Part shown: positions 11,321-53,313 of the stretch, one piece after another | Layout of the letters: each line of letters begins with the position of its first letter | Numbering within the stretch: the stretch's first letter is position 1 | Source of the DNA: Macrolepiota albuminosa | Taxonomy: Eukaryota > Basidiomycota > Agaricomycetes > Agaricales > Agaricaceae | Length of the DNA stretch: 64,000 nt | NCBI GenBank assembly: GCA_027475525.1 | Contig: JAMWFC010000044.1 | Coordinates: forward strand, 435,340-499,339 | Direction of reading: 5' to 3' | Program-made: the position numbers and the translations under genes | Notes under the pieces: model-generated | The model's input: only the letters and a program-made list of their open reading frames with translations | Told to the model about the DNA's origin: nothing | The model's database searches: none

Positions 11321-11489
11321 TTTTTTTTTAACCGCCAGCTAGGATCTATTGCCTAGCATCCGACGTCAGTTACTGAGTTTGTTGACAGAACTCTATCAGC
11401 TTCTCGAGCTTCTTGCACAGCCACACCATACAAATTTCAAACAGGGAATCAATGAGTAATCCCATACCTGCAGTTTCCACTGACAGCGG
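11321..11489 (+). CDS. B1 leader and first codons of gag
   Basis: A T-tract of nine bases follows the LTR; no TGG primer site is evident. The first ATG of the long B1 frame is at 11452, and 38 nt later A1 is inserted. Removing A1 and one target copy restores the frame with 24863 onward, which supports this ATG as the gag start. Confidence 0.6.
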
Positions 11490-12532
11490 TGATAGGCTTC
11501 TACTCGGACTGAGCGCATCAAGGGACATTATAGGCCGACCAACACTTGACACACTAAAGGCTCTAGCGACCAGCCTTGGGTACAGAGCAGCCCTAGCGCG
11601 GGCGCTCTGTGGCAAGACTTATCCATTCATCTCAATCACCAGTATCAGCCCCTCAGCGCACTCCACTCAGTTACTTTGAAGACCAAGAAGACTCAGGACT
11701 CATAGCGCTAGCATAACGGCGGGAGGGGACTCTGACCAAACCCCGATCAGTACTGGAAGGAGTTAGCAATTGGCGCTGTCAATCACCGAGGCACCTCAAT
11801 CAGAAGTCTAAAAGAATCAATGACGACGAGACAGGATACACGCAGACCCGACATTTAAATCTATCAAAAGATGGTACAATGTTTAGCGCCGGAATTAGCG
11901 CTCACGGCGTCTGTCGAGGATTCTCCGACCATACCCTGGGATGGCATGGCCAATTAAATTACATCAAAAAGTGAGCAAACTCGTACCACTTCTAAGTAGT
12001 TTTAGAGTCGCCGTTGGTCGCCGTCACCCATGTGCTGCAGGTCGCCGTTGACAGGTGGCCGTTAGCTACAGTCACGAAGAGAGGCGCTAATCGGTAGCGC
12101 CGTCAATGGACTTATTTTGGAAATAATGTAGCGCATAGTATAAAAACTAGCTACTCGCCATGTATATAACAACGAATCGTAACCTCTTGAGCACCCAGTT
12201 ACACTTAGCGTTCAAATCGCGCTAGCATTGCCTGACTTTGCCACCAAGTTTGGCGCTAGCTTCGTCTATCTCGTCTTCATCGTTTACGGTGCCACCTACG
12301 GGCATGCTACGCTGCGCTATTCGTTTCTTTCTCTATAACTTCTCCTAAACTACGACACTTACCACTTGCTAGGTAGCATCCGAGGCGCTATTGTCTAGCG
12401 CATCCCCCTATCACCTCTGCTTGAGCACACCGGGACCCTGCCGGGACTCCTCACAAACCCGTACGCCAGGCGCTGGAGACGGCGTTGTACTGCGTATACG
12501 TCCAGCGCACCCAACCACAGTTGGCGTCATCA
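11490..12532 (+). mobile_element. A1 5' LTR (1043 bp)
   Basis: TGATAGG..GTCATCA. TATAAAAA at 12139-12146 is the likely core promoter, repeated in the 3' LTR at 24465. Compared with the 3' LTR there are only a few substitutions, one 20-bp deletion near 23880 in the 3' copy and the 77-bp duplication in the 3' copy. Confidence 0.93.
12139..12146 (+). promoter_or_regulatory. TATA box of A1 5' LTR
   Basis: TATAAAAA, conserved in the 3' LTR; in A-old copies it appears as TATAAGAT or TATATAAG. Expected start of the genomic RNA is about 30 nt downstream. Confidence 0.6.
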
Positions 12533-12535
12533 TTT

Positions 12536-12553
12536 TGGAGCCCACCGCGAGGG
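12536..12553 (+). other. A1 primer-binding site
   Basis: TGGAGCCCACCGCGAGGG begins three bases after the LTR end, the expected place and start (TGG pairs with tRNA CCA). It implies a primer tRNA ending GGGCU-CCA, that is with U as discriminator base, as in tRNA-Cys; the tRNA cannot be fixed without the genome tRNA set. Conserved in A-old at 9562. Confidence 0.7.
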
Positions 12554-12611
12554 GTTCTATTGAGGCAGAATTCCGCCGGAAACTCGAGCCCAGCGACAGC
12601 GCCGCCTCCTA

Positions 12612-15209
12612 TTGGAGAGCGCGTTTGAGCAAACCTTAACTGAGTCACCACACTTACCAGGCGCGCTACCGAGGCAGACTTTAGATCAGGAGCTTGAAGC
12701 CGCTCCAGATAGCTTGGCTGAAAGCTTCTTCCCATTTTCCTGACCGTTCGAATACTTAGCAGGTGAAAACCATACACCGCTTACTCCTTTGGAAGAGCTG
12801 TCTAGGTCATTATTGCCAGAACCTAGCGACTCAGAATTACCTGAGCCAGTACCGACTACAACCCCGCCAAGCGAAACTACCACTAACACTACTATTCCCA
12901 CCACGACGTCGACGCCAGCTAGTATGGAGCAGGCAAACACACCGCGTATGCCGCCAAGAAACCACTTTTCGTCGCCAAAATGGGACGAGACGAAACCTCG
13001 CGAGCTAACACAGTATTTCCGAGAATTGGAATATTTATTACGCGACTGCCGAGTCACCGACAACACACAAATGAAAGAATACGCCGCCAGATACGTTTCC
13101 TACGATACCGCGGAATCCTGGACGGGACTGGATGAGTTTCAAGGATTAACACGAGAGGCGGTGCCAAGGTCGTTTACCTACGAGGAATGGAAAAAGGCGA
13201 TCATTAAACTGTACCCTGGCGCTGAGGAATCCACGCGCTATACCGTCCTTGAAATCCAGAAACTGGTACAGGATACCTTCGCAACGGGCATTTATACACT
13301 AGGCACGCTATCTACTTATTATCGAGACTTCCAGCGAATTGCAAGATGGCTAGTACAGAATGGCAAACTCTACAGGAACGAGGAACGGCGCTTGTTTCAA
13401 CAAGGCATTCCAACATCACTTTGGACTCGTATAGCTCGTCGCTTAGAAATTCTTAAGTCCGACCACCATCCTGAGGAACCCTACGATATAGAAGACGTCT
13501 TTGAAGCAGGTAAATGGATACTGAAAGGCACGGATACTGGCATCCCCTTCCAGCGACCTTCTAGCACTGATAACGGAGGAAAGGCGCCACCTGTTGCGGC
13601 GCCCGCACCTAGCGCAACTAACAATCAGGGAGGTTTTGTCAAGAAGGAGGACCTGGAAAACGCAGTCAACACGGCTGTCGCAAACGTTATGAGCAAATTG
13701 GAAACGTTAATCTCGACTAGCCTTAATGCGCCACGAGGTAATATGCAATCCGGCCCTTGTCACTTCTGTGGTGAGGCAGGACATACGATGACTCGCGGAC
13801 GCTGCGCTATCCTCGAACAATACCTGCGCCAAGGAAGAGCACGCCGAGGCGCCGACGGGAAAATAGTCCTACCCTCCGGCGCTAACATCCCTCTATATCC
13901 TGAGCACCGAACCTTCCAGGGGCGAATTGATGAATGGCACCGACGTAACCCTGGGAACTTAGCGATGGGCAATCTCAATAGTACGGCCGCAGCAGAGGCA
14001 GAAACAACTCCACAACAGGCGCTAATCCATGAAGTACTCTGGCTTAACGCTGTTAGCGAGCGACCGACGTTGTCACGAGAGGAGAGGATCGAGACGTTGG
14101 AAAGGGAGCTAAAGTTGCTAAAGAATCAGGTTTTCGATGGTGTCGAGATTAAAAAGAGCAAGCAACCGTTGAAAGACTATAGACCTTCAGGCGCTACGAC
14201 CGATCCAGCACCTGCAAAGCCTTCGAATTCCAGTATCAACGACGACACACCTGATACGGCCAAAGCACCAGCTAGCACGGAACCGCCACTACACCCGTAT
14301 TCAGGACTTGCCGGTAACTACGCTCCGCCTATCAATCGAAACTTTGGAGCGCCAGACAAGCCAGCAGGAGGCTACCGACCAACAGCACCAATCTACGACA
14401 TAGAAAAATCTAAGCAAGTATTCGATCGTATTATGAAAAGTCAAGTCACGATGTCGGTAGGGGAGCTATGCAGTGTGGCGCCAGACGTCAGGAATCAGAT
14501 GCGTACAGCGGTAACCCCTCGACGGAACGTAGCTAACAATGTAACGGCGGTGGACGAATGCGACGACGCGCTACCTGGATTCGCGTACATAACCGAGACG
14601 GTCACGTCGGAAATCAAAGAAGAGGCCGCGCCACCTAAAGAAGCTACGTCCATTGACCCGGTCGAAACTTACCTTAAGTCGCTAAGATCTAGCGACGATC
14701 CCGCCATCCTCACTGTAGCCCAAGACTCTCATGCGATTCGCTCGATTATGTTGACAGTTGATGGAAAAAGCGAGATAGAATCTATAGTGGACAGCGGATC
14801 ACAGATTATTTCAATGGCTGCTGACGTCGCTAACGAGCTTGGCATCATTTACGACCCGACCATCATTCTTAATATGCAAAGCGCTAACGGCACTATTGAT
14901 CGATCCTTGGGAATGGCTCGTAACATGCCATGCGCTGTTGGCGATCTTACGTTTTACCTTCAAATACACATTCTTAGGTCGCCTGCGTACGACTTATTAT
15001 TAGGGAGGCCCTTCGACGTCTTAGCCCGATCAGTAGTCAAGACGACGTCTGAAGACGAAACGACGCTAACTATTAGCGACCCTAACTCGGGCGTCAGAAG
15101 AACGGTACCAACGTTTCCACGGGGGAAATTCCAGAAACCGGGACCGAGAAAGCGACCTTACGTTAGCGACGACCCTTGCGAGTGTTTTCCGGCGCCATCG
15201 AGGAGATGA
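12612..15209 (+). CDS. gag-pro: A1 Gag-protease polyprotein
   Basis: Structural and protease polyprotein of a Ty3/Gypsy element. First ATG in frame is 12924; the frame upstream is also conserved with A-old back to 12612 but in A1 has a TGA at 12738 where A-old reads CGA. From 12924 (762 codons): Gag capsid-like helical region (about residues 25-200), zinc knuckle CHFCGEAGHTMTRGRC (C-X2-C-X4-H-X6-C, spacing longer than the usual X4 at the end), a long linker, then a retropepsin-like domain with IVDSGSQI as active site and LLGRPF as C-terminal core motif. Ends in an ATGA overlap with pol. Without frameshift or reinitiation no Pol would be made. Start is the least certain part. Confidence 0.85.
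15206..15209 (+). promoter_or_regulatory. ATGA stop/start overlap between gag-pro and pol
   Basis: The TGA ending gag-pro (15207-15209) overlaps an ATG (15206-15208) that opens the pol frame, one base back. The same ATGA is kept in A-old at 42498-42501. The pol frame is closed by a TAG at 15164-15166, so any frameshift would have to occur within 45 nt, and no good slippery heptamer is seen there. Coupled termination-reinitiation is therefore a real option. Confidence 0.6.
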
Positions 15210-16441
15210 GTGATGAGGATCATGGAGATGAAGCGCTTATCTTGGACTATAACCATCGGACTGGGCAAGTAAACTTTATATCCTATACCCCTTTAGCCCA
15301 TGAAATCTTGAATTCTTCTTCGTCGCTTACTAGTGACGCGTTATCCTACTTATACCTCACTGCGTCAGATATTACTGAAAACCTTTCAACAGACACTTAT
15401 TTCGTTTCTACTCCCGACTCTAAAGAATCTTTGATATCAGGTTTCGCTAGAACCCATGACTCTATTTATAATACGTTTGCTAACAATAGTACCCCTAAGC
15501 GCAAAGGGGTTCAGGTCAAGAAGAAATATAAACCTGTAGCGCTTAAAACAAAACCGGTAGCAAGCGCCGTACCCGAGGAATTTCGCATCGAAAGAAAAAT
15601 AATAGGCGACCCTTTGGCTACCCTGCCAAAACTCGATCCGAATCCACCACCCTTTGAACCAACAGGACGATTTACAGAAGAACGAAAGGCGCTATTTCTT
15701 AGCGCCCACGATACCGGCTTCCTCTCGACGGAGGAGATGAACGTACTAGTCGCCATCATGCAAAAACAGAATGAGGCTTTTGCATGGGAGGACTCAGAAC
15801 GCGGTAAACTTAGAACTGACTTCTTTCCACCAGTGGTCATCCCAACCATACCGCACGTACCCTGGACTGAGCATAACCGACCCATACCCCCGGGCATCGA
15901 AGCCGAAGTCTGCCAAATTATTCGCTCCAAGATAGCGGCAGGTGTATACGAGCCTTCTAATTCGGCCTACCGCTCGAGGTGGTTCTGCGTACTAAAGAAA
16001 AACGGGAAGCTACGTATAGTTCACAGCCTAGAACCGCTAAACAAAGTCACCATTCGTCATTCAGGGGTACCGCCATTTCCCGATCACGTCGCTGAATCTT
16101 TCGCGGGACGAATATGTGGCGCTACCCTGGATTTGTACGTAGGCTATGACGAGCGCTTAATCCATCCTTCCTCTCGCGACTTGACGACATTTCAAACACC
16201 GTTTGGGGCGCTACGACTAGTCACACTTCCTATGGGATGGACAAACTCGGTACCGATATTTCACGATGATATTACGTTTATCCTACAGCCCGAAATACCC
16301 TACCATGTGCTCAGTTTCATAGACGACGTAGGAGTTAAAGGCCCGAAGGATTGGCGATTGGTAGATGGCAAGCCCGAAGTTCACCCGGAAAATCCTAATA
16401 TTCGCATGGCGCTATGGGAATTCTTTCAACTGGTTAACTGA
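15206..16441 (+). pseudogene. pol: A1 pol, part 1: reverse transcriptase
   Basis: RT domain of the Ty3/Gypsy type: RIVHSLEPLN, TLDLYVGYD (first catalytic Asp), TTFQTPFGALR, LPMGWTNS and SFIDDVGVKGP (catalytic Asp pair, FIDD in place of the usual YLDD). The FIDD/PMGWTNS combination marks an RT lineage I know from mushroom-forming fungi. The frame opens at the ATGA overlap and ends at TGA 16439-16441. A-old has CGA at this position, so this stop is a single C-to-T change in A1; the same frame goes on at 16442. Strict reading makes the element non-autonomous. Confidence 0.9.
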
Positions 16442-18310
16442 GTACTTCAGCGCATGAAGTATTGTGGCGGGACGTTTTCAGGGCACAAGCTCGTTCTTTG
16501 CGCACCGCAGTTTAAAATTTTGGGGCACGTTTGCACGCCAGAAGGCAGGATTCCAGAAAAGAGCCGATTAGCGCTGTTGGAGAAATGGGGGGTCTGTCAT
16601 AACCTCTCGGAAGTTCGCGTGTTCTTGGGCACTGTAGGGGTGCTGCGCATGTTCATACACCATTTTTCTCATCGCGCAAATGCCCTTAATCGCCTAACCC
16701 GTTCAGGGGTCCCCTTCGAATTCGGACCCAATCAAATCAATGCCCAGAAGGACTTAGTAAAGGCGCTACAGGAAGCGAAACCATTGGTACCCATTGACTA
16801 TACTACCGCCGATCCCGTTATACTTGCTGTTGACACATCATATATCGCCGTTGGCTTCTTCTTATGCCAGTGTGATAGCGCGAACCAGAAAATCAGGCGC
16901 TACAATCGTTTCGGATCGATTACCCTTAACAACCGAGAATCGCGCTACAGTCAGCCCAAGCTAGAGTTATATGGCTTGTTTCGATTGTTTCAGGCGCTGC
17001 GCATGTACCTCATTGGGGTACGAAATCTCATTGTCGAGGTCGACGCACGATACATCAAAGGAATGCTTCAGAACCCTGATATTCAACCGTTGGCCAGTAT
17101 GAACCGCTGGGTAGTAGCGATATTAATGTTTCACTTCGAGTTAGTACACGTCAGAAGTGCATTCCACGGGCCGGACGGATTATCTAGGCGACCCAGACAA
17201 CCGGAAGATGAAGCACTAGACGATAGCGACAACGATGTATTTGACGACTGGATCGATCCATTGCATGGTTTCATGCATATCATTCAGCTGCCTATTCCGG
17301 CGCTTTGCGAAGACCAACCAGTTTCAAATTGGCTTCACCCTATTGTTCCGTACCAGCCCCGACCATATCAGGCGTCATCAACTTTTTACACGGCCAGTAT
17401 CTATAACGTCGCTAAGCCGTCTAACGATCTAAAGATAGTCGAGGAACCAAGACCCTTGAGAGAAAACAGTCAGAACCTGCCATATTCGGCGGTACCTCGA
17501 AGCGCCAAAGCTAAGTCAGAAGATCAGCGAGTGGGCCAGGTTAGGAAGTGGCTACAGGATTTGCGACGACCATCAGACCTTACAGATACGGAATACGCCA
17601 CCTTCATTCGATACGCGACGACCTTCTTTATAGTGGAAAACCGACTTTGGCGACGAAATAGAGATGGCGCCCACAAGCTAGTAATTAAACCGGACAATCG
17701 AATTAGAATTCTACGCGCTATGCACGATGACTTGGGACACCGTGGACTCTACGCAACAAGAGCGAACCTTTTGGAGCGCTTCTGGTGGCCTCAAGTTAGC
17801 GCCGATATTGCGTGGTATATTCGCACTTGTCATCTCTGTCAAATCCAGCAGACACGTCAGGTTCTTATTCCCCCAACAGTAGCGACTCCAGCGCCGCTAT
17901 TTGGAAAAATATATATCGACACCATGCACATGCCCAAGTCAGGGCGCTACAAGTATATCATTCAAGGAAGGTGTTCCTTGGTACATTGGCCGGAGTTCTG
18001 TATGCTCCAACGAGAAAATACAGACGCTATAGCTAAGTGGCTCTTTGAGGACGTTATCTGCAGATGGGGAGCCCTTCATGAGATCGTCACAGACAATGGA
18101 GCGCCAATAGTTAAGGCGCTCACTTATCTTGCCAAGAAGTACAACATTCAACACATACGGGTTTCTGGTTACAACAAGCGCGCCAACGGAATCGTAGAAA
18201 GGCCTCATTTCGACGTTCGACAGGCGCTATTTAAGGCGGTCGATGGTGACGAAAGTCGCTGGAGCGAAGCGACTTATTCGGTCTTCTGGTCGGAGAGGGT
18301 TACCGTATGA
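16442..18310 (+). pseudogene. pol: A1 pol, part 2: RNase H and integrase core
   Basis: Continues the same frame. RT thumb/connection region with GHVCTPEGRIP, RNase H with AVDTSYIAVGFFLCQC and RYSQPKLELYGLF, then integrase: zinc-binding H-X-H..C-X2-C (HDDLGHRG to TCHLCQIQQ) and the catalytic D, D, E in YIDTMHMPK, VTDNGAP and GIVERPH. The frame is closed by TGA 18308-18310, where A-old keeps CGA (TGCGAAAG). Otherwise no frameshift over 1.9 kb, in line with very recent inactivation. Confidence 0.9.
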
Positions 18311-18886
18311 AAGAGGATGGGTTGTTCACCCTACTACGCGGCGACAGGCACCCATCCACTCCTCCCGGCCGACATAGTGGAAGCTACTTACTTACAGCCA
18401 CCCCCGAATTCGATACTATCTTCCACCGACATGATTGCTAGGCGCGCTATAGACTTACAGCGACGCATGGAGGATCTCGAGCGCTTACACGAAGTAGTAT
18501 TTCAAACTAGACGACAAGCTGCGCTACGATTTGAAAGCGAGCACAGCGCCACGATCAGAGACTACAACTTCACCTCTGGCGCCCTCGTACTAATGCGCAA
18601 CTCAAAGATCGAAGTTACCCATAACAAAAAGATGCGACCTCGGTATCTGGGACCCCTAATAGTGGTTTCCCGCAATAGGGGAGGCGCCTATGTACTCTGC
18701 GAGTTGGACGGCTCAGTTTTGCATCGACCAGTAGCGGCGTTTCGACTCATCCCCTACTTAGCACGGGAACACATTCCCTTACCTTCGTCGGCGCTGGACA
18801 TTGACACGGCTAAACTACGAGAACTGGAAGAAACGGAGTTAGTGGATGATGACGAGACCCCTGTTGACGACGACGAAGAACAGTAA
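18311..18886 (+). pseudogene. pol: A1 pol, part 3: integrase C-terminus
   Basis: Same frame after the second TGA. Contains GCSPYYAATGTHPLLPADI, a helical linker and a GPLIVVSRNRGG motif of the GPY/F type, then an acidic tail ending DDDEEQ and TAA. No chromodomain is visible, unlike element B1. The N-terminal part of this segment completes the integrase core helix. Confidence 0.85.
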
Positions 18887-19033
18887 ATGAAGGCGAAGGA
18901 CGAGGCGCTAGGTGTTAGCGCCCCCGTTAAGTAAACTTAGGTCATGTCTCCCTTTCGGAAGGCATATTGGATGACATAAATAGCTATGGTACAGGCGAGA
19001 ACACAAAATCAACTACGGTTACTACGTTACGAG
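18887..19033. other. Convergent gap between pol and antisense gene AS3
   Basis: 147 bp between the TAA of pol and the stop codon of AS3 on the other strand. No clear polyadenylation signal recognised. Confidence 0.4.
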
Positions 19034-19752
19034 CTATGCTGAAGAAGACCGGCGACGAGAACCTCGGACTCGCTCCCTGGGCCGCCTAAAGGAGGGAGGA
19101 CCGCCTGGAGGAGGAAGAGGGGCACCTGGTGTAGGCACCGGAGTACTCGAAGGCGGCGCGTTGCGAGATACGGCGGGAGGAATGCAGGATGAAGGTACTG
19201 GAGCGCTAGGAGTTGGCGCAGGAGGAGCGCCTGGAGGAGGGGCAGCGAGTTCGGGGGAAAGGTCCCACTCCCCGTAGGAGGGCTGAAGCGAGGGCGGGAA
19301 AGGAAAGACCACGCGGTCGAGGACTGCCCTACGGGCACGGGACTCAACCAGGAGCGGAAGGGGAAGCCACGAAAGGCTCTTGGCAACGGCATGGAATTAG
19401 CAACCCAAGGTCAGAAGGAAAGAGCTATGGACTAACCAAACTACCAGTCTCCCGAAGAAGGCTCGCCAAACTTGCTGCGCTAGGCGTAATAGTCGACTGC
19501 GAACACATGAGCAACAAACAAGATACGCGCTAACAGGAGGCGAACCGTGACCAGAGACTCATCCTGGTCTATCATCCATTCGGTGGAGGCGTCCAACAGG
19601 ATGCGATATCGGCGCACCAGGGTCATGGTATTTCCGTTTTCATGAGGGAAACCCCCCGTAGGCATAATAGCCAGGAAGTGTTCAATACGATCCAAGATCG
19701 CGGGGCGGTGAGGAAGTTCCGGATCTGGGAGAAGTATGGAGGGGGCTGGCAT
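19034..19752 (-). CDS. Antisense gene AS3 in A1 (paralogue of AS2, Pro-rich tail)
   Basis: Starts ATG 19752 with about 80 residues that align with AS2 (pattern L-[ED]-R-[IV]-x2-FL-x3-P-[AT]-G and RR..LL.A). An intron near 19510-19450 and another near 19447-19398 are needed; borders are uncertain. The last exon has LSWLPLPLLVESRARRAVLD, then a Pro-rich tail with PPPGAPP-type repeats ending SSSA, stop TAG 19034-19036. In A-old the same frame is kept at 47797-47105 with PPPGTPP repeats. Function unknown; a structural or binding role would be a guess. A weak TATTTTA word lies upstream. Confidence 0.5.
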
Positions 19753-20095
19753 GATGAAATACTAACAAACTTAAGGGCGGCAGAGCCCATAAAATATCTC
19801 TAGCTACTTGCAGGGTCGCAGCGACTTAGGAACTTTTACATGGGCGAAACAATCACGAGGGGGGGGGGCGACAACAACGATGCATTTAATATACGACGAC
19901 ATTGGAAATCAAGAATCTAAAATCTGTCAGTTCTGTGGCGCTACGGAGAAGGGAAGATCACCTTACATAAACGACACAGGAGGCGGAAGCAAATCAAGGA
20001 GCGGGCAACAGGAGGAAACGCGTCCCTCCGTCAGAGGGGCCACGAAAGAGGCGACCACCGGTAGAAGAACGAGGAGACTGGTGAAGAAGGCGCGG

Positions 20096-20498
20096 TTAGA
20101 CAGGAAAAGAAAGGAGTAACGGGGTAAGGACAGACTGGCTTTCTTCCAGCAGCAGCTCAAGACGCTCTCGCGTGGAGGTGGGAGGAAGTTGCTTTAATTA
20201 GCGACTGTCAGCAAAGAAGAGGGCGAAAAAGGCAGGAGCGCACCTGAAAAATGCGACTCCAGGCCTTCTCCATACCAAACTGCATCAGAGGTTTGCTATC
20301 CGACCAGATCTCACAGGCCGCATGCAGCAACTGGCAGCGACGACTTAATTCGAGGACGCCATCGTCCAGTTCTGGCACGCTGCCAGCAGGATAGTGGTGA
20401 AGGAAAGAGGTGACACGCTCTAGGAAAGTGGGAGGGTCCATCATGACGTGAGCACGATCACAGCGGGGAGTCCACACCAGGCCGGTCGGGCTGGTCAT
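20096..20498 (-). CDS. Antisense gene AS2 in A1 (116 aa, two exons)
   Basis: Exon 1 20498-20244 (85 codons), intron 20243-20192 (52 nt, GTGCGC..AAAG), exon 2 20191-20096 (31 codons and TAA), phase 0. A TATAAAT box lies about 40 nt upstream of the ATG. Exon 1 has PPTFLERVTSFLHHYPAGSV and RRCQLLHAACEIW, exon 2 RERLELLLEES, suggesting an alpha-helical protein. The exon 2 motif is preserved in frame in A-old (KERLELLLEES near 48210). Related to AS3, so the two arose by duplication. No known domain recognised. Confidence 0.6.
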
Positions 20499-21020
20499 CG
20501 CGAAGACTGATGAGATCCAGTTGATGCATATGCAATTTATAGGACACGGCTAGAGTTAGAACGGCGACAGCGTGGGAGGACGTTTCACAAAGAACGAGGA
20601 CCCTGACGAAGATACTAGCCAATGAGAGGCGCTTGACTCATTGTTGGACCGCGCAGAAAGGAAATCGCCATTCTAGACCTAGCGCTTATGATCACCATCA
20701 CCGAATAGCCACAAAACGATCTCTGGCACTCTATTACTTTATAGAATAAGCTTCTTGCATGGACCTACTTATTATTTTACAGACGATACCCTTTTCTTTC
20801 TAGGCTGGCGCGATAATGGCTATTGGGCAGCGCCGGCAACAGGGGTTTTTGCGCCATGATGATCTACTGAGCGTTTCCCCTTTTTACTTATTTTCTGTTG
20901 ATTACTTACAAACTGACGATTTGAAGCCAAGGGAGGCGTTTATTTTAGTATCACACTACAAAGTTCGTATAAAAAAAAGACAAAGTCCATAAAAAGTTTA
21001 AAAGCGCTGATGGTTGGCAA
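20499..21020. other. Spacer between AS1 and AS2
   Basis: About 520 bp between the stop of AS1 and the ATG of AS2, holding the AS2 promoter and presumably the AS1 terminator. AT-rich in the middle (20930-21000). No ORF believed. The same spacer is present in A-old at 48561-49077. Confidence 0.5.
20535..20541 (-). promoter_or_regulatory. TATA box of AS2
   Basis: TATAAAT on the minus strand, 37-43 nt before the ATG at 20498; kept as TATAAAT in A-old (near 48595). Confidence 0.55.
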
Positions 21021-23614
21021 CTACGGATCATACTCGGGAAGGGCGGGATCGCCCAAAGGAAGCAAGTCCCCGTCCTGGATCAAGTTACTCGCTTGCCACT
21101 CAAGTGCAGCGGTAATATCGTCATGGAGCTCGAGAAGGAGGCGCTTGCGGCGAGCTAAGGTGGAAACGCGAGGACGCAGGTTTGCAAGTTCGCAACCAAC
21201 GGCTTCGGTCGCATCCTCGATATGGCGGAGTTGCTGGCGAAGGTCGGCAGAAGGGCGGAGAGGGGTAACAGGATAGGAGAACTCGTCCCCGAGCCAAGGG
21301 AAGGCGTCACCAGAAACTCGCATGGCGGGAGGGGGAGTCCAAAAGGGATCGAACTTATGGAAGGTTAGAAAAGGGGAGAAAAAGGGGAACAAACAAAAAC
21401 GGACGTACCTGGACAGTTACAGGCGCACGGGGTGTCCACTCATGGCGCTCGTCGCCGGGGGACATAGCTCTGGCGGAAGAAAGATGGATGCCGTAGGGAG
21501 GCAAGTATCTCCAGCGGCGACGACGCTCACCTTCCGGCACCAGGGTTCCTTCGGATTCCGGCGCCGCAGAAGTCTCGCGACTACTAGGAAAAGAAGAGGA
21601 GCTGTGGGGAGGAGTAAGGGACGGAGTGATAGGGAGAGCAACCGGAGTGTCGCTAGCCGCAACCGACTCGGGGGCGGGGGTAGCGCCAGCGTCAGACATA
21701 ACGACATCTTCGGCAGCAGGGATAGCCACGACGACGGGAACGGGAGTGGGGGACCTATCAGTCAAGAAGTTAGCACGCGAAGAAAAGAGAAGTTAGGAAA
21801 ATGCGTACTGGTTACCACTGGGGCCACTCTGACGAGGGTTAGCGGCGATAGGGGGAGTAAGGCGAAGCAGGAGAGCGCGTACCGCCAATAGCGCATCGGC
21901 ATCAACAACGGGCTCAGCTTCATCATCATCCTCTCCCTCGGCATCCCTCTCAGTGCCCTCCCCCTCATCCGTAGAAGACTCGGTCGAAGACAAAACCACA
22001 GGCGTAGCAGGCGCTAGCTCGCGGCGCTTACCAGGGCTCTTGCCAGGAGACGCGACAACAGGCTTACGTTTCGAAAGAACGGGACGACGAGGAGAGCGAG
22101 CAAAAGGTGCCGCCACGGTAGTACCATCCTGGGTAGTCGGCAGCGCCAGGCTGGCTGCGCTGATTACCGTGGGTTGGTGAGTAGCCGCCAGATCACGTTG
22201 CTGCAGCACGAAGTCCCGGGCGTTATAAACCAACACCGCGCGCTCATAGTTCCTTTGCATAATGGCGTCCCTACCACATTCGCGAGTACGAATCCCGTTG
22301 AAGGCGCAGCCTCGTTTCAGCGCATCGCACCGATAGCAAGGCAGAGACGCGGTAGGAAACCAGCAGCCCTCAGGGTCGTTCTCAGACCAACACTTGTCAC
22401 ACTAAGAAAGAAGTCAACGACGGCATGAACCTACTAAGGGGCAAACCAGTGCTTACAGCGCCAATCTTTGCCCTAAACGCGCGACGCTCCAAGGGCGCAA
22501 CGGTAACCTTCTTCTTGCCGCCCAGCACTTGGACACCAGCCGGGACGCCGGTATCAATAACGGTAGTATCACGGCGAAGACGCAAAAGGTCGCGAAGCTC
22601 CACGTCGGTGAACATGGTCTGGTTAGGCGCCTATCGACATTAACATTTAGGCGCTAAAGTCTAGCGACAACGAGCAAAGCACTTACGACATACAAAGGGG
22701 GAACACGAGCAGGGAGATTGATCTGGAAGGGGGAGAAGTCAGAAAAATGGAGTAAGGAAGATAGGAAAAGAACACATGGTACGTTTGGGAGGAGAACTAG
22801 CACGAGCAGGAGGCGCTCGTTCAATAACAATGGCGAAATTACAAAAGAACACATGGTACGTTTGGGAGGAGAACTAGCACGAGCAGGAGGCGCTCGTTCA
22901 ATAACAATGGCGAAATTACGGAGGACCATGAGAAGTTGGGCGCGTCGGGCCGGGTCGTGGCTCGCTACGAGAAACGGCAATACGTTTGATGGCCGAATGG
23001 GGAGGGGCAGTACGGACGGGAGAAGCAGCGCTTGGGGCAGGGCGAGTGGAAGAAGCAGCGCCACGAAAAGGGCTGCCAAGAACGGAAGGAGGCGGAACAG
23101 AAGTCGAAGAAGGAGGGGCGGTAGGAACAGAAGGGACAGTAGAGGCCGAGGGGGCAGTAGGAAGACTGGCGACGGTGGGAGACGTGGCAACCGACTACTC
23201 AAGGATTAACAGTGGAAAAAGGGGGAGAAGGAAGGACTTACTTTGCTGACCTTGGTACTAGCCAACAACGCGTCGATCTCGTCAGATAAGGAGGGAGCCT
23301 AGTATGGGCGCTGAACCTTAGCGCCACAACGCCAAAATCAAACTTAGAAAACTTACGAAAAGGTCCGCGAAAGGGCGCAACCAATCGGCACCCTCATACT
23401 CACGGTACCGGGCCACGCACCACTCGCGAACCTCGTCACCCCGCTCCCAGGAACTGTCGGAGCCGCGGACCACGAGCCAGCGCCGATAGAGTTGCATAAT
23501 ACCAGGGACGGTTTGTGGCGCATCGGCGGGACCGACAGACTTAGCGCGATCAAATAAATAGGAGGCCTTAGCCAGGAAATTGCGGAGAGCAGAGGCGTCG
23601 AAAGAAGTGGACAT
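21021..23614 (-). CDS. Antisense gene AS1 in A1, Zn2Cys6-like protein (about 686 aa, eight exons)
   Basis: Modelled exons (minus): 23614-23357, 23298-23242, 23194-22920, 22722-22687, 22618-22457, 22401-21809, 21754-21409, 21353-21021. Introns are 47-68 nt except the third (197 nt, inflated by a 77-bp duplication), and phases agree except at exon 3, where A1 lacks one base that A-old has. Exon 6 starts with a cysteine cluster C-X2-C-X8-C-X8-C-X2-C-X6-C (CDKCWSENDPEGC, then PCYRCDALKRGC), close to fungal Zn(II)2Cys6 spacing but with X8 for X6. Ser/Pro-rich linkers and an acidic stretch follow; the last exon is predicted coiled coil (LRQQLRHIEDA). A TATAAAAAG box lies upstream. Conserved with the same exon order in A-old. 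DNA or RNA binding is inference; a capsid-like role is an alternative. Confidence 0.6.
22766..22919. repeat. 77-bp exact tandem duplication 4
   Basis: 22766-22842 equals 22843-22919 exactly; absent from the homologous place in A-old (50820-50900). It lies in the third intron/exon border zone of AS1. Confidence 0.95.
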
Positions 23615-23663
23615 ACTGGAAAGATGGGAAGGAAAACACGGGGAGGTGAAGTACGGAAAACGA

Positions 23664-23672
23664 CTTTTTATA
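23664..23672 (-). promoter_or_regulatory. TATA box of AS1
   Basis: TATAAAAAG on the minus strand, 50-58 nt before the AS1 ATG and between it and the 3' LTR; kept as TATAAAAT in A-old (near 52345). The antisense gene therefore seems to have its own core promoter inside the element. Confidence 0.6.
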
Positions 23673-23752
23673 AGGCGCCGGCGGCATTATACGGACCGTA
23701 GCGCAGTCAAATTAACGACGGTGTTTGACTGAGGACAGTCAATTTTTCAGTT

Positions 23753-23761
23753 GGGGGGAGA
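23753..23761 (+). other. A1 polypurine tract
   Basis: GGGGGGAGA directly before the 3' LTR; the plus-strand DNA primer site. Identical in A-old at 52430-52438. Confidence 0.8.
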
Positions 23762-24858
23762 TGATAGGCTTCTACTCGGACTGAGCGCATCAAGGGACAT
23801 TATAGGCCAACCAACACTTGACACACTAAAGGCTCTAGCGACCAGCCTTGGGTACAGAGCAGCCCTAGCGCGGGCGCTCGATCTCAATCACCAGTATCAG
23901 CCCCTCAGCGCACTCCACTCAGTTACTTTGAAGACCAAGAAGACTCAGGACTCATAGCGCTAGCATAACGGCGGGAGGGGACTCTGACCAAACCCCGATC
24001 AGTACTGGAAGGAGTTAGCAATTGGCGCTGTCAATCACCGAGGCACCTCAATCAGAAGTCTAAAAGAATCAATGACGACGAGACAGGATACACGCAGACC
24101 TGACATTTAAATCTATCAAAAGATGGTACAATGTTTAGCGCCGGAATTAGCGCTCACGGCGTCTGTCGAGGATTACCTGACATTTAAATCTATCAAAAGA
24201 TGGTACAATGTTTAGCGCCGGAATTAGCGCTCACGGCGTCTGTCGAGGACCCGACCATACCCCGGGATGGCATGGCCAATTAAATTACATCAAAAAGTGA
24301 GCAAACTCGTACCACTTCTAAGTAGTTTTAGAGTCGCCGTTGGTCGCCGTCACCCATGTGCTGCAGGTCGCCGTTGACAGGTGGCCGTTAGCTACAGTCA
24401 CGAAGAGAGGCGCTAATCGGTAGCGCCGTCAATGGACTTATTTTGGAAATAATGTAGCGCATAGTATAAAAACTAGCTACTCGCCATGTATATAACAATG
24501 AATCGTAACCTCTTGAGCACCCAGTTACACTTAGCGTTCAAATCGCGCTAGCATTGCCTGACTTTGCCACCAAGTTCGGCGCTAGCTTCGTCTATCTCGT
24601 CTTCGTCGTTTACGGTGCCACCTACGGGCACGCTACGCTGCGCTATTTGTTTCTTTCTCTATAACTTCTCCTAAACTACGACGCTTACCACTTGCTAGGT
24701 AGCATCCGAGGCGCTATTGTCTAGCGCATCCCCCTATCACCTCTGCTTGAGCACACCGGGACCCTGCCGGGACTCCTCACAAACCCGTACGCCAGGCGCT
24801 GGAGACGGCGTTGTACTGCGTATACGTCCAGCGCACCCAACCACAGTTGGCGTCATCA
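23762..24858 (+). mobile_element. A1 3' LTR (1097 bp with duplication)
   Basis: Begins TGATAGG after the PPT and ends GTCATCA. Near-identical to the 5' LTR apart from a 20-bp loss near 23880, a small difference at 24250 and the 77-bp duplication 24098-24249. Confidence 0.93.
24098..24249. repeat. 77-bp tandem duplication 5
   Basis: 24098-24172 recurs at 24175-24249, period 77, 75 matching bases; the 5' LTR of the same element has a single copy. Confidence 0.9.
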
Positions 24859-32018: not shown

Positions 32019-32036
32019 TTTGATTGGCAGTGCCGA

Positions 32037-32282
32037 TTGTGGCTTGGCTGAGTTGGTCAGCAGCTGTGGCTGAAACACGTCTTAAAAGGCGAAATTTCTT
32101 TTTCGCTTTTTTCTTGTGGCTTGGCTGAGTTGGTCAGCAGCTGTGGCTGAAACACGTCTTAAAAGGCGAAATTTCTTTTTCGCTTTTTTCCTCAACCATG
32201 GACAAGTTGGTCAGCAGCTGTGGCTGAAACACGTCTTAAAAGGCGAAATTTCTTTTTCGCTTTTTTCCTCAACCATGGACAA
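32037..32282. repeat. Triple 77-bp tandem repeat (duplications 6 and 7)
   Basis: 32037-32113 equals 32114-32190, and 32128-32205 equals 32205-32282, period 77 each time. Each unit holds GGCGAAATTTCTTTTTCGCC-like hairpin arms (GCGAAA and TTTCGC) followed by a T-run. Located between pol and ORF3 of B1. Confidence 0.95.
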
Positions 32283-32301: not shown

Positions 32302-32336
<35 letters not shown>

Positions 32337-44662: not shown

Positions 44663-46933
44663 GTCATAACCTCTCAGAAGTTCACGTGTTTCTAGGCACA
44701 GTAGGCATTCTTTGCATGTTCATACACTATTTTTCACATCAGGCGCATGCTCTTAATCGCTTAACTTATTCTGGGGTCCCCTTTGAATTTGGACCCGACC
44801 AAATTAATGTCCAAAAGGATTTAGTGAAGGCATTGCAGAAAGTGAAGCCATTGGTTCCCATCAACTATACTACTCCCGATCCCATTATACTTGCCATTGA
44901 CACTTCATACATTGCGGTCAGCTTCTTTTTATGTCAGTGCAATGGCACAAATAAAAAAATCAGGCACTCAATAACCCTTAATGACAGAGAATTGTGCTAC
45001 AGTCAGCCCAAGCTAGAGTTGTATGGCTTGTTTTGATTGTTTCAGGTGCTACAAATGTATCTCATTGGGGTTCAAAATCTGATTGTCAAAGTCAACACAC
45101 ACTACATCAAAGGAATGCTTCAGAATTCAGATATTCAACCTTCAGCCAGTATGAATCACTGGGTAGTAGCAATATTAATGTTTCACTTTGAGCTTGTTCA
45201 CGTCAAAAGTGCATTTCATGGATCTGATGGACTATCTAGATGACCAAGGCAGCCAGAAAATGAGGCGCTAGACAAAAGTAACAATGACATATTTGATGAC
45301 TGGATCAACTGGCTGCACGGTTTCATACATATCATTCAATTATCTATTCCAGCACTTTGTGAAGATTGACCAGTCTTGACATGGCTACACCCTATCATCC
45401 CATATCAATCTAAGCCATATCAGGCATCATTGACTTTTTACATGGCCAGTATCTATAATGTCGCTAAGCCATCTGATCTAAAGATAGTTGAAGAACCCAG
45501 ACCTTTACAGGAAGACAGTCACAACCTACCATATTTGGTGGTACCTTGTAGTGCCAAAGCTAGGTCAGAAGACCAATGAGTTGACCAGGTTAGGAAGTGG
45601 CTACAGGATTTGCACCAACCATCAGACCTTACAAATACGGAATACACCATCTTCATTCAATATGTGACAACTTTCTTTATAGTTGAAAATTGACTTTGGT
45701 GATGAAATAGGGCTGGCACTCACAAATTAGTAATCAAACCAGACAGTCAAATCAGAATTCTGCACGCTATGCATGATGACTTGGGACACTGGAGACTCTA
45801 TGTGACAAGGATGAACCTATTGGAGTGTTTTTGGTGGCCTCAAGTTAGCGCTGATATTGCATGGTATATTTGCACTTGTTATCTTTGCCAAATACAGCAG
45901 ACACATCAAGTTCTTATTCCTCCAACAGTAGTGACTCCAGCACTGTTGTTTGGAAAAATATATATCGACACTATGCATATGCCCAAGTCAGAGCACTACA
46001 AGTACATCATCCAGGAAAGGTGTTCCTTGGTACATTGGCCAGAGTTCCATATGCTCCAGCAAGAAAATACAGATGCTATAGCTAAGTGGCTCTTTGAAGA
46101 TGTTATTTGCAGATGGGGAGCCCTTCACAAGATTGTTACAGACAATGGAGCATCTATAGTCAAGGTGCTTAACTATATCATGAAGAAATACAATATTCAG
46201 CACATTCGAGTCTCAGGATACAACAAACATGCTAACGGTATTGGAAAGGCCACATTTTGACGTTAGACAGGCATTATTCAAAGTGGTAGACGGTGATGAG
46301 AGTCGCTGGAGTGAAGTGACTTATTTGGTCTTCTGGTCTGAATGAGTTATAGTGCGAAAGAGAATGGGCTGTTCTCCTTACTACGCTGTGACTAGCACCC
46401 ATCCACTGCTCTCAGCAGATGTTGTGGAGGCAACATACTTACAACTCCTGCTAAACTCAATACTGTCTTCCACTGATATGATTGCTAGGCATGCTATAGA
46501 CCTACAACAATGCATGGAGGATCTTGAGCGCTTATATGAGGTGGTATTTCAAGCTAGACAACAGGCTGCACTATGATTTGAAAGTGAGCATAGCATCACG
46601 ATCTGAGATTACAACTTTGCAGCTGGTGCCCTAGTACTAATGCGCAACTTGAAGATCAAAGTTACCCATAACAAAAAGATGCAATCTCGGTACCTGGGAC
46701 CCCTCATAGTAGTTTCCCGCAATAGGGGAGGCACCTACATACTCTGCGAGTTGGATGGCTCAGTTTTGCATCGACTGGTAGCAGCATTCCGACTCATTCC
46801 CTACTTAGCACATGAACACATTTCATTGCCTTTGTCAGTGCTGGACATTGACATGGCCAAACTTCAAGAACTTGAAGAGACTGAGTTAGTGGACAATGAT
46901 GAGACCACTCCGGATGACAATGAGGAGCAGTAA
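44663..46933 (+). pseudogene. A-old pol, RNase H and integrase part
   Basis: Pieces 44668-45036, 45037-45243, 45376-45579, 45769-46260, 46352-46576 and 46640-46933 align with A1 pol to its end. The position of the second A1 stop reads CGA here (GTGCGAAAG near 46348). Decay is mostly C-to-T. Ends EEQ and TAA as in A1. Confidence 0.87.
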
Positions 46934-47104
46934 ATGAATACAAAAAACGAGGTGCTAGCCATTAGCGCCTCTTGATCAGACTTAGGCAATGCAACAATCA
47001 TAAAAGAATAAAATTAAATAAATAAGCTTGGACAAGTACAAGAGGAACTATTAAACTGACTACAACTACAACTGAACAAGCTATGCTATCAAAGAGGACC
47101 TACA

Positions 47105-47797
47105 ACAAGGACCTTTGACTCGATCCTTAGGTCACCTATAGGTGGGAGGAGTGCCTGGAGGTGGCATGTTAGAGGATGGTATGGGGGGTACAGGAACGCT
47201 AGGAGGAGGCACGGGAGGAGTGCCTGGGGGAGGAGCATGAGGAGTGCCTGGAGGTGGAGTATGGAAAGTGCCAGGAGGAGCGGCGGAAGGATTAGGGGAA
47301 GAATATCACCTGTTCTTGTCAGGATGAGACTCTACAGATGTGAAGGAAAAGGCCATGCATTCAATCATTGCTCTACAAGCATGGACGTTAACGAGAGGTG
47401 GAAGGGGGAGCCATGAGAGGCTTTTAGAAACAGCATGGAATTAGCAACCTAAGGTCAGGAGAAAAGAGATAAGAACTAACCAAACTTCCTGTTTTGTGGA
47501 GAAGACTGGTCAGACTCAAAGTGGTACCTGTAATAGGCACCTACAGAATGCATGAGTATTACTCAAGACATGCACTAATGGGAGGCATACAGTGACCAAG
47601 GATTTGTCCAGGTCAATCATCCACTCCTTGGATGCAGCCAGCAGGATTCAGTATCTGTTTACTAGGATTATCACGTTGCTGTTTTCATGGGGAAATCCGC
47701 TGGTAGGCATTAAAGCTAGGAACTGTTCTAGGTGGTCTAGGATTACAGGGCGGTAAAGAAGTGCAGGCTCATCAAGAAGAAGAGAAGGTTCTGGCAT
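47105..47797 (-). pseudogene. AS3 copy in A-old
   Basis: ATG at 47797; first exon aligns with AS3 (LDHLEQFLALMPTSGFPHEN) with one TAG, middle LSWLPLPPLV, and a last exon with PPPGTPP repeats. Shows that AS3 was part of the element before the A-old and A1 copies separated. Confidence 0.55.
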
Positions 47798-48149
47798 GAT
47801 GTGATAATGATCAATTTACCAGTGCCAGAACCCATAAAATACCTCAAGCTACTTGCAGAGTTGCAGAGACTTGGGAATTCTTACATGTGCAAAACAATCA
47901 TGAGGGGAGGGGGTAACAACGTCAATGCAATTCATACAACTATGACACAGGAAATCAAATACCTAAAATCTGTCAGTCCAGTAGTGCCACAAAAAAGAAG
48001 GAGTCAGCTCATATAAGCGATATGGGAGATGGATGTGCATCATGGACTAGGCAAAAGGAGAGGCCAGGGAGGCCTCCATCCTTTGACGGGACCGCAGAAA
48101 AGCCAACCACCAGTAGACGAGCAGAGAGCCTAGTGAGGTGACATGTTTA

Positions 48150-48560
48150 GCTAAGAAGGGAGGAAAGAGGTAATGAAGTGATGAACCAGGTAATGGCTTT
48201 CTTCCAGCAGCAGCTCCAGACGCTCTTTTATCTCCTCAGTCAAGATTTGCTTTATTTGGTGACTATTAGAAAAGAAGAGGTACAAAAAAGACAATAGCGC
48301 ATCTGAAAAATCCAACTTCAGTTCTTCTCCATACCAAAACGGGTCAAAGGTGCATCATTGTTCCAAATTTTACAAGCTGCATGCAGTAGCTGACAGCAAC
48401 GACCTAACTCAACGACTCCGTCAGTCAGTCTGGGCATGCTGACAGCTAGGTAGTGGTGGAAGAAGGAGGCAGCGCGTTCTAGGAAAGTGGGAGGATCAAT
48501 CATAACATGAACACAATCACAGCAGGGAGACCACATGATGCCGGTTGGGCTTTCCATCAC
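48150..48560 (-). pseudogene. AS2 copy in A-old
   Basis: Exon 1 48560-48310 approximately (PPTFLERAASFFHHY), intron of similar size, exon 2 with KERLELLLEES. TATAAAT upstream. Slightly longer C-terminus than in A1. Confidence 0.55.
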
Positions 48561-49077
48561 AGAGACTGATGAGATTCAGTTGAGGCATGGGCAATTTATA
48601 GGACTTGGGCAGTGTTTCAACTAGCAATAGCATGGGAGGACACTTCTCAAGGGACTTGGACCCTGAAGAGGATGTGAACCAATAGAATGCGCTTGACTCA
48701 TTTTTAGATCACGTAAAGAGGAAGTTAACCTTCAAGATCTGGCACTTATATCCACCATCACCAAATAACCACAAGCAATCAGTGGCACTCTATTTCTTAT
48801 ACATCAAACTTCTTGCATGAACCAACTTATTTTTCTACAGACGATACCTATTTCTTCCTAGGCTGGCACGATATTGGCTATTGAGTCGCGCTGGCAAAGG
48901 AGTTTTCTATGCTATGATATACTGAGTGTTTCCCCTTTTTCTTATTTTGTATTTGATTACTTACAAACTGACGATTTCAGAACAAAGAGGGGAGCATTTA
49001 TTTTTAGTACCAGCTACAACAAACTATGTATCAAAATTGACCAAGTCCACAAAGTTTGAAGTGCTACGGGCCAGCAA

Positions 49078-52000: not shown

Positions 52001-52293
52001 CGCTGAACCTTAGCGCCATGAAACTAAAATCAAACCTAAAAACTTATGAACAAGTCTGCAAACGAGTGCAACCAATCAGCACCTTTGTATTTGCGGTACC
52101 GGGCCATGCACCACTCACAAACCTCAACATCCTGTGCTCAGGAACTGTCAGAGCCATGGACTATGAGCCAAAGTGGCATGATGCCAGGAACGGTTTGTGG
52201 TGCATCTGTGGGACTAACAGACTTAGCACAATCAAATAAATAAGAGGCCTTAGCCAGGAAATTGTAGAGGGCAGAGGGATCAAAATTAGACAT
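49078..52293 (-). pseudogene. AS1 copy in A-old, split by solo LTR C3
   Basis: ATG 52293, stop TAG 49078-49080. Exon order matches A1, with the Cys cluster (CDKCWSENNPEGC, PCYQCDVLKRGC near 50355-50460) and final coiled-coil exon. The exon 6 donor is GTGAGT and in the same phase as A1 GTACGC; the exon 1 donor is destroyed (ATAAGT). C3 sits in exon 2. Exon 1 has an internal loss. Confidence 0.6.
51212..51963 (-). mobile_element. Solo LTR C3 (752 bp)
   Basis: TGTCAGG..CATGACA. Flanks ATCAA (51207-51211) and ATTGA (51964-51968) are both one or two transitions from GTCGA, the word present at this place in A1, so a decayed 5-bp target duplication. Confidence 0.9.
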
Positions 52294-52438
52294 GCTGAAA
52301 AGATGGGACAAAAAACACAAGAAGGAGAAGTGCTGAAAACGATTTTATAAGGTGCCGGCAGCATTATACAGACCATAGCGCAGTCAAATTAATGACGGCA
52401 TTTGACTGAGGACAGTCAATTTTTCAGTTGGGGGGAGA

Positions 52439-52465
52439 TAATAGGCTTCTACTTGGACTGAGTAC
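52439..52465 (+). mobile_element. A-old 3' LTR, first 27 bp
   Basis: TAATAGGCTTCTACTTGG after the PPT GGGGGGAGA (52430-52438); continues at 53314 after insertion G. Confidence 0.85.
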
Positions 52466-53313
52466 TGTAGTACTTGGTTGCAAGTAGTACTGATAGTTCT
52501 GGGACTTGATGGTGTAGAAGGTTACTTGTAGTGCACACTGACTTGATGATAAAATTGATATATTTGAAGGCTTTCAATAATCTTCCTGAAAGCAGAGGGT
52601 TCTCAACAAACTCCAGCCTAAATGATTCACTCCCTGGGAACCACCGAGCCTTTGCCTATCAATTGCCTGTCTATTCTCTACTAAACTTGGGCTATTTATA
52701 CTGTTTTTCTGGTGCACAGACCACTATCTACACATGACTCTTTTGTTGTCAACTCCCCAGCCTCCAGAACATATTTGATAGTCCAATTTCCCTTTTGGGA
52801 GGCATGTTTTGGTGCCACCAGTTCCACCATCCAACTTCTTGTTCCACCCTTCCTCCAGATGTCTCTGATTGCCACTTCCCCATTTGCTTCAGCTACATTT
52901 AGCACGATCCCATTCATAGATCCTTCTTTCCCCTTTTAGCGCTTCCCTGCATTCCATGCTTCTTTTGACATCCCTCCATGCTTCTTTTCCTTTCCTCTTT
53001 CAGTCATGTCAAATCAGGCATTGTCAGATCTGATCTTGATCTAGATCATCACAAATTGATCCCATTTTGTCACTTCTGCCAGCTCCCATGCTTCCCCTCC
53101 CCATTACAGTGGTTGGACTATTGTTGAGTGGATAGCTTGAGCTGGTCCCTGCCCTTTGTTCTGTACTGTCTGTGTATTTATTGGGGTGTTTTTGGAGATA
53201 TAATTTGTTGAGACTGCTACCAGGAGGCTTACAGTTTTCAGCCTTATGATTAAATATTTATTTTGACTTCTGGTGCATGTTGTGTCCCTGACTGCTGGTA
53301 CAGCATTGTATCA
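52466..53313. mobile_element. Insertion G (848 bp), probable solo LTR
   Basis: TGTAGTACTTGG..TTGTATCA inside the A-old 3' LTR. Left flank AGTAC and right flank (A)GCGC are both derivable from AGCGC, the word in the A1 LTR at this place, so a decayed 4-5 bp target duplication. TATTTATAC near 52695. No ORF. Confidence 0.7.

Follow-up and report, generated by a model that had tools for sequence, protein, structure and literature searches.

Genes that run antisense to gag-pol are known from long terminal repeat (LTR) elements of plants, and their functions are not established (PMC7264820). We describe here three such genes, AS1, AS2 and AS3, in A1, a Ty3/Gypsy-type element located on a 64,000-nucleotide stretch of the genome of the basidiomycete Macrolepiota albuminosa (assembly GCA_027475525.1, contig JAMWFC010000044.1, positions 435,340 to 499,339 of the forward strand; hereafter the window, whose positions are used as coordinates throughout). 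The aORF-3R class of plant antisense open reading frames (aORFs; Retand/TRP28, Grande gene23, RIRE2) is likewise protein-coding, antisense, situated between pol and the 3' LTR and conserved across copies, the Grande gene having its own promoter and a nuclear protein, and TRP28 possibly binding DNA (PMC7264820, PMC11963269). The word 'intron' does not occur in these two papers, whereas AS1 is multi-exon; furthermore, AS1 lacks a TRP28 match and has a six-cysteine cluster, and A1 has dispersed motifs. The gene brtn of the Boty-like Gypsy element of Botrytis cinerea (Zhao 2011) is also an extra antisense gene in a fungal Gypsy element (PMC8365987), in this case of an ascomycete. VANC, from the VANDAL elements of Arabidopsis, resembles AS1 as a diverging, element-encoded protein. 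Its own element holds short family-specific motifs (a specificity that is partial for the motifs of A1 and its sister type), and its binding to them (by chromatin immunoprecipitation and electrophoretic mobility shift assay) and the accompanying loss of methylation were shown in VANDAL (PMC5735166). In contrast to A1, in which the motifs are dispersed, reach into coding DNA and lie on both strands, VANDAL is a DNA transposon with tandem noncoding motif repeats (PMC5735166). We regard VANC as apparently the nearest functional parallel, and the plant aORFs and brtn as the nearest anatomical ones.

The HBZ gene of human T-cell leukaemia virus 1 (HTLV-1), which has a spliced form, is comparable as an antisense gene at the 3' end that encodes a nuclear regulator (a role that for AS1 is predicted), and differs in that AS1 has no bZIP match and A1 carries three antisense genes. 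The HBZ promoter lies in the 3' LTR (PMC7264820), whereas the predicted promoter of AS1 is internal, with a conserved TATA box about 90 bp from the LTR border. Gypsy elements with antisense genes are known, and what is new here, as not found in the literature covered, is the combination of multi-exon antisense genes with dispersed motifs; the full-text search (judged by titles and the starts of abstracts, with most subscription journals outside its scope) returned no spliced antisense gene set in a fungal Gypsy element.

Our reading, in which confidence and doubt are evenly balanced, is that AS1-AS3 are true protein-coding genes with several exons that belong to an abundant Ty3/Gypsy lineage, with AS1 as a putative DNA-binding regulator directed at motifs of its own element. 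The genes have a predicted spliced structure; AS1 evolves under integrase-like selection, is part of a very large and recent family whose diverged sister shares the genome, and is paired with a motif code that can be tested. What antisense retroelement genes do thereby becomes open to direct testing. The locus also illustrates a way for introns to persist in a retroelement, and extends the search for self-tag anti-silencing beyond the DNA transposons of plants.

The three genes lie on the minus strand, 3' of the integrase, and the interval 19034-23614 extends exactly from the stop of AS3 to the start of AS1. Their parts, together with those of a decayed relative in the window (A-old), are as follows.

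23667..23672, minus strand: TATA box of AS1, inside the element
23357..23614, minus strand: AS1 exon 1, helical N-terminal part
23242..23298, minus strand: AS1 exon 2
22778..23194, minus strand: AS1 exon 3, borders taken from the alignment with intact copies (in A1 a 77-bp duplication enlarges it and the donor is lost)
22687..22722, minus strand: AS1 exon 4
22457..22630, minus strand: AS1 exon 5, conserved FTDAELRDLL region
21809..22401, minus strand: AS1 exon 6, with the cluster of six cysteines, a helix, and the basic and acidic stretches
21409..21754, minus strand: AS1 exon 7
21021..21353, minus strand: AS1 exon 8, conserved WLG..YP..LRP motif, C-terminal helix and stop
20939..20944, minus strand: AATAAA downstream of AS1
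20536..20541, minus strand: TATA box of AS2
20244..20498, minus strand: AS2 exon 1
20132..20191, minus strand: AS2 exon 2
19994..20077, minus strand: AS2 exon 3 and stop
19546..19752, minus strand: AS3 exon 1
19437..19496, minus strand: AS3 exon 2
19034..19378, minus strand: AS3 exon 3, proline-rich, and stop
46500..53500, minus strand: A-old, decayed AS1-AS3 at corresponding places

The AS1 alignment comprised 42 rows (A1, A-old and two sets of 30 and 10 genome loci) and 40 distinct copies (A1 being identical with L001, and L002 with L031); as the loci were chosen as best matches or by identity class, the intact fraction is not a genome-wide rate. These copies bear out the eight exons assigned to AS1 in the preliminary description, with the full frame of 709-712 amino acids (aa) and seven GT-AG introns present in 16 of the 40. 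The consistent intron borders claimed there hold for all seven introns of these 16 copies and fail in part for A1 itself, where six of the seven are GT-AG; around exon 3 and intron 3, an exact tandem duplication of 77 bp (22766-22919) and an altered donor break up the A1 gene. At least 73 extra bases (mostly 75-77) were present in one or more exons of 15 of the 24 non-intact copies, the signature of the 77-bp duplications, the other nine showing mainly stops, small shifts, insertions or a lost end. Intron positions were preserved in all three genes across the rows with readable sites. A TATAAA stood upstream of every AS1 start found by pattern (36/36; six of the 42 rows gave no pattern match), and the TATA boxes proposed earlier for AS1 and AS2 were located at 23672 and 20541. 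All three genes do recur at matching places in A-old, as had been stated, though in decayed form (a stop in the first exon of both AS2 and AS3, and an interrupted AS1). The A-old AS1 is split at 51200-51960 by a repeat with relatives elsewhere in the window.

Both the window and 26 of 40 loci contain tandem duplications; their period is 77, apart from one of 30 and one of 154 (twice 77), and exact or near-exact cases occur in the window at 3021, 7152, 9904, 22766, 24098, 32037, 32128 and 55137. The single shared period points to the assembly, and we consider the duplications probably an artefact (presumably of k-mer joining) that breaks frames and can mislead annotation. A biological origin of the frame breaks in many copies was rejected in favour of these exact one-period duplications.

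For AS2, to which two exons had been given, three were found (20498-20244, 20191-20132 and 20077-19994), and AS3, described as spliced, indeed has three. The products are of 132 aa (AS2) and 203 aa (AS3), and in A1 all introns are GT-AG. Over 12 rows, the first intron of AS2 has GT in 11 and AG in 12, while the second has AG in all 12 and, in the 11 rows besides A1, a GT placed three bases later, behind a CTG codon. The corresponding numbers for AS3 are GT 11 and AG 11 (intron 1), and GT 11 and AG 10 (intron 2), the failing rows being A-old and L037. In L037 other sequence interrupts AS3, and AS1 and AS2 exon 1 remain open. AS2 is homologous to AS3 (hhalign probability 94%, E 1.4e-7), and all three genes have in common a long first exon followed by a second one of 19-20 codons.

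Selection was assessed through the ratio of nonsynonymous to synonymous substitutions (dN/dS or omega; Nei-Gojobori) and a null in which the observed changes were permuted to sites of the same trinucleotide context. Eight AS1 pairs (a ninth was omitted for frame) had omega values of 0.101, 0.288, 0.142, 0.101, 0.136, 0.134, 0.161 and 0.165 against null means of 0.56-0.65, with none of 300 permutations as low in any pair, and 0-1 stops were observed where the null means were 0.6-9.2. The dN/dS check proposed in the preliminary description thus came out far from 1 (AS1 0.10-0.29, null about 0.6). The figures for AS2 and AS3 cover exon 1 only: AS2 had omega values of 0.184, 0.121, 0.110 and 0.178 in four pairs (0/300 permutations as low), and AS3 0.260 in one of three pairs, dS being saturated in the other two. 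The integrase tail gave 0.055, 0.139, 0.083 and 0.111 in four of six pairs (two saturated). For the AS1 of the sister subfamily (introduced below), seven pairs ranged over 0.089-0.186 (0/100 permutations as low), and exon 1 over 0-0.174 in four pairs. The antisense genes are under constraint on the same scale as the integrase. Chance open frames were rejected on the basis of dN/dS and stop counts.

The genome of origin (100.1 Mb, 129 contigs) was searched for the parts of the element, first-look candidate counts of 852 and 1239 denoting a very high copy number. Co-location was scored on the best (approximately) 150 of 852 matches for AS1 exon 6, of 1138 for the integrase tail, of 386 for AS2 exon 1 and of 286 for AS3 exon 1 (for AS2, 151 were reported and 150 used), and the counts are lower bounds. 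Within the best 150 of 852 AS1 places, the integrase was at the expected side and on the opposite strand for at least 102, AS2 accompanied at least 97 and AS3 at least 94; AS3 stood beside at least 129 of the 150 AS2 places (best 150 of 386). Discordant nearby pairs numbered one to three per comparison among the matches listed. Among these, 30 of 150 integrase places had no antisense match; two of them were fetched (L041 and L042) and both hold a far-diverged AS1, and by eye at least ten of the 30 carry a diverged AS1. As in the plant aORFs, we found an antisense coding gene between pol and the 3' LTR in many copies and in related elements. The earlier claim that the element carries the genes is upheld by the co-location (102/150), the purifying selection and an AS1 at the matching place in the sister subfamily, and it is supported that AS1-AS3 belong to the element itself. 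A separate nested transposon was rejected, as the genes stand at one place in the copies read.

The sister subfamily was represented by six loci, L041 and L042 picked by their integrase and L043-L046 by a match to the Termitomyces protein P0003 (so that in these four the integrase, and not AS1, is the independent finding). All six have an A1-like integrase tail with AS1 on the other strand. The tails are 83-87% identical to that of A1 over 168-189 aa in five loci (in L042 the tail is cut, 53 aa at 91%), and the sister AS1 matches the A1-type AS1 at about 32-48% identity, in pieces. No tblastn match to AS2 or AS3 was obtained in L041 and L042, the two loci searched, and the distance between AS1 and integrase (approximately 430-490 bp in the five sister loci that hold the integrase end) is too short for both. 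In the sister type, the cysteine cluster and the C-terminus are situated in a single exon (360-423 aa), and intron numbers consequently differ between subfamilies. The frame search with L042 gave four places with 100% identity (L042 among them), a sign of what appears to be recent spread. Between L041 and L042, identity is 89% from the LTR to the stretch of AS1 exon 1 (exon 1 alone 77%) and 91% close to where pol ends, while dS between their AS1 genes, from the cluster to the stop, is about 2; such a dS within flanks of 89-91% identity points to an exchange of AS1 versions, and mosaic elements among which these were swapped would be the simplest reading. Because AS2 and AS3 are mutually homologous and neither was found in the sister type, a history that began with AS1 and gained AS2 and AS3 afterwards is a better fit than the capture of all three together, the form in which a captured gene set (raised in the preliminary description) fares worse.

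Searches with the exon-joined proteins, proposed at the outset, yielded homologues and no known family or fold. The full-length AS1 scored 7989 candidates in the protein collection, none of them significant, whereas the zinc region as query retrieved homologues, all from Termitomyces sp. T32_za158 (zinc region 53-62% identical, architecture matching). One of them, the independently annotated P0005 (626 aa), matches parts of AS1 exons 1, 5, 6 and 8. Conserved between the two are the helical N-terminal part, the FTDAQLRNLL region, the cysteine cluster (CDKCW-x7-CWxPTxxxPCYRCxxLKRxC), the helix after it, basic stretches followed by acidic ones and, at the C-terminus, a WLG..YP..LxP motif plus a long helix. 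In the model of P0005, the helices 129-188 and 541-608 have predicted local distance difference test (pLDDT) values mostly near or above 90, and the remainder is poor. Fungal Zn2Cys6 factors follow the pattern C-x2-C ... C-x2-C-x3-K-x2-C; AS1 shares with them the six cysteines and differs in their spacing (C-x2-C-x8-C-x8-C-x2-C-x6-C), and its cluster has no Pfam match to Zn_clus (PF00172). Against Pfam and NCBIfam, AS1-AS3 had insignificant matches only, and TRP28 (PF04195) matched neither AS1, the scanned AS1 homologues, the provisional AS2 nor the pieces of AS3.

The word AGCGC (either strand) is present 136 times in the 13.4 kb of A1 (11490..24858), often inside TAGCGC or AGCGCC and most densely in the LTRs, at 10.2 per kb versus 0.8-2.4 elsewhere in the window. 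In dinucleotide-type shuffles, TAGCGC was the top over-represented 6-mer of the A1 LTR (13 v 0.9) and AGCGCC the third; the same two also rank highest in gag-pol of A1 and in the part from pol to the LTR, and one or the other is first in nine of ten A1-type loci (L031-L040; in the exception, L035, the best rank is 4). In the decayed A-old they rank 26 and 14. The leaders in L041-L046 are CGGCAA, CGCCAA, CGGTAA and CGCTAA, that is CGSYAA(G), the leading 6-mer reaching a z of about 10-12; over 5-kb stretches, z is 8.0 and 7.0 for A1 and about 11 for L041 and L042. With 500 synonymous-codon shuffles within frames, which leave protein and codon use unchanged, the A1 motif (TAGCGCC) was in excess in gag (13 v 4.5, 1/500), reverse transcriptase (13 v 3.8, 0/500), ribonuclease (RNase) H-integrase (19 v 6.8, 0/500) and integrase tail (6 v 2.4, 9/500), as well as in the AS1 coding sequence of L034 (20 v 9.5) and L037 (14 v 6.7). 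The sister motif (CGSYAAG) was in excess in each of five pol frames of the sister type (8 v 1.7, 8 v 1.5, 35 v 6.2 in L044, 28 v 4.4 and 16 v 2.6; 0/500) and in each of four AS1 frames of that type (13-16 v 3.2-5.3, 0/500). Three frames of element B, behind A1, showed no clear excess (highest 4 v 1.6, 48/500). The motif sites occur on either strand and collectively cover all frames, which suits recognition of double-stranded DNA and not of RNA. The observed/expected ratio of CpG is 1.1 for A1 against 0.36 for A-old, a loss that suggests methylation-type pressure on the old copy and would favour a protection role for AS1.

The mechanism that we propose has AS1-AS3 transcribed from their own promoters, on the strand opposite to gag-pol. 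AS1 would be a nuclear, sequence-specific DNA-binding protein (as its six-cysteine cluster, basic and acidic stretches and C-terminal helix lead us to infer) and would recognise short motifs dispersed over its own family, TAGCGCC in the A1 type and CGSYAAG in the sister type. It may raise the expression of the element or counter its silencing, possibly as an anti-silencer like the plant VANC, and AS2 and AS3 would be later, paralogous helper proteins with the same first-exon architecture. Splice signals on the minus strand are inactive in the plus-strand genomic RNA and the introns are copied (the logic of retrotransposition reporters), and such antisense genes are expressed only from integrated copies. 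Since the splice signals lie opposite to the genomic RNA, the introns survive retrotransposition and the genes can keep them. Conservation on a mobile element, joined to the anatomy of AS1, favours genes that regulate or assist the element, as the preliminary description had supposed; AS1 most likely serves its own family as a DNA-binding factor in the nucleus, and may activate the element, protect it from silencing or restrain it.

Several observations weigh against this reading. The model of P0005 is poor (mean pLDDT 54, with a low zinc part), AS1 has no significant match in Pfam, among PDB sequences (best E 8.2) or by fold (Foldseek best E 3.5), and the kinship of its exon 1 with AS2 and AS3 is merely suggestive (hhalign E 0.047 and 0.091). 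One control stretch of the window reaches a z of 6.4, the maximum of ten such stretches, which partly overlap and some of which hold remnants of A-type elements. The motifs are only partly specific to their subfamilies: all five sister pol frames are enriched for the A1 motif too (e.g., 18 v 7.4), and the sister motif is in excess within A1, in gag (18 v 6.5) and weakly in the RNase H-integrase frame (8 v 4.0), an overlap that is partly built in, as TTAGCGCC contains TTAGCG. The AS1 coding sequence of L003 shows no enrichment of the A1 motif (15 v 10.9). The additional conservation of motif sites has the expected sign in 6/6 A1 pairs; it is weak in noncoding DNA (z 0.7-2.6) and uninformative in five sister LTR pairs (z 0.2-1.5). 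A cruder test gave larger contrasts in five of six A1 pairs, and showed A1-type words kept in a sister pair as well. Lastly, the differences in motif and protein were compared across two subfamilies only.

The strongest rival, which falls short of an even chance and is nonetheless a serious possibility, accepts the genes as real and attributes the motifs to a by-product of CpG mutation or repair bias, unrelated to AS1. CpG is part of both motifs and is lost from old copies, and the weak site conservation and the overlap between subfamilies point the same way; however, the enrichment exceeds the dinucleotide and the synonymous-codon nulls, the leading words differ between sister subfamilies of one genome, and the three element B frames have no clear excess. 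Our fullest version of the DNA-binding reading, an antisense anti-silencer with introns for which the whole element, synonymous codons included, would have been rewritten as binding sites, protein and motif co-diverging and AS1 being exchanged, is itself tentative and on the whole doubtful.

Restraint is a further candidate, and an unlikely one: AS1-AS3 would exert copy-number control, slowing jumps in loaded genomes. HTLV-1 HBZ and the Gag-derived restriction factor of Ty1 restrain their elements. The HBZ-like anatomy (antisense, 3' end, nuclear-type protein; in part PMC11963269) and the very high copy number (852 and 1239 first-look candidates) speak for such a function, but a repressor would be hard to keep by selection among competing copies, and motifs within coding sequence resemble a self-tag that benefits the bearer copy. 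Less probable still is that AS1 serves integration or nuclear entry, by targeting of the pre-integration complex, instead of transcription or chromatin: the integrase linkage in both subfamilies and a DNA-binding cluster that could tether complementary DNA are compatible with it, yet expression only from the integrated antisense gene would part AS1 from the particle, and self-motifs within the element do not predict target choice. We find it very improbable that host genes were captured by chance and hitchhike; gene capture by LTR elements is known (PMC7264820), and the sister type yielded no match to AS2 or AS3, but the genes are under selection and keep their position between old and young copies as well as between subfamilies. 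Action of antisense transcripts as RNA (double-stranded RNA, small-RNA feedback) has been proposed for plant elements (PMC7264820); that they act so here, with incidental reading frames, is scarcely credible, being strongly disfavoured by dN/dS, with strong amino-acid selection and frames kept between proteins of about 32-48% identity.

The remaining features of A1 are as follows.

11490..24858, gag-pol on the plus strand: A1 element, Ty3/Gypsy-type
11486..11489 (left) and 24859-24862 (right): target-site duplication GCGG
11490..12532, plus strand: 5' LTR (TG...CA), 1043 bp, paired with the 3' LTR
12789..15209, plus strand: gag-protease frame (Pfam Asp_protease_2, E 9.8e-7)
15176..16441, plus strand: reverse transcriptase frame (RVT_1, E 0.012, under the curated cut-off)
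16454..18310, plus strand: RNase H and integrase frame (RT_RNaseH 4.4e-12, Integrase_H2C2 4.2e-16)
18317..18886, plus strand: C-terminal part of integrase, end of pol
23750..23761, plus strand: polypurine tract GTTGGGGGGAGA, 5' of the 3' LTR
23762..24858, plus strand: 3' LTR, 1097 bp, with a 77-bp duplication inside at 24098

The assignment to Ty3/Gypsy follows from the TG..CA LTR pair, the target-site duplication, the polypurine tract and the order protease, reverse transcriptase, RNase H, integrase, the reverse transcriptase match itself being below cut-off (E 0.012). The two LTRs differ by 10 mismatches and a few small gaps over roughly 1.04 kb (aligned parts). The pol of A1 is broken between 16441 and 16454; among the other copies, several possess a 1239-aa pol frame. 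Directly behind A1 (24859-35400), a second retroelement with protease-, reverse transcriptase- and RNase H-like frames was recognised by eye. A sequence about 80-88% like the A-type LTRs, with no evident body alongside, lies at 8489-9441 and is perhaps a solo LTR.

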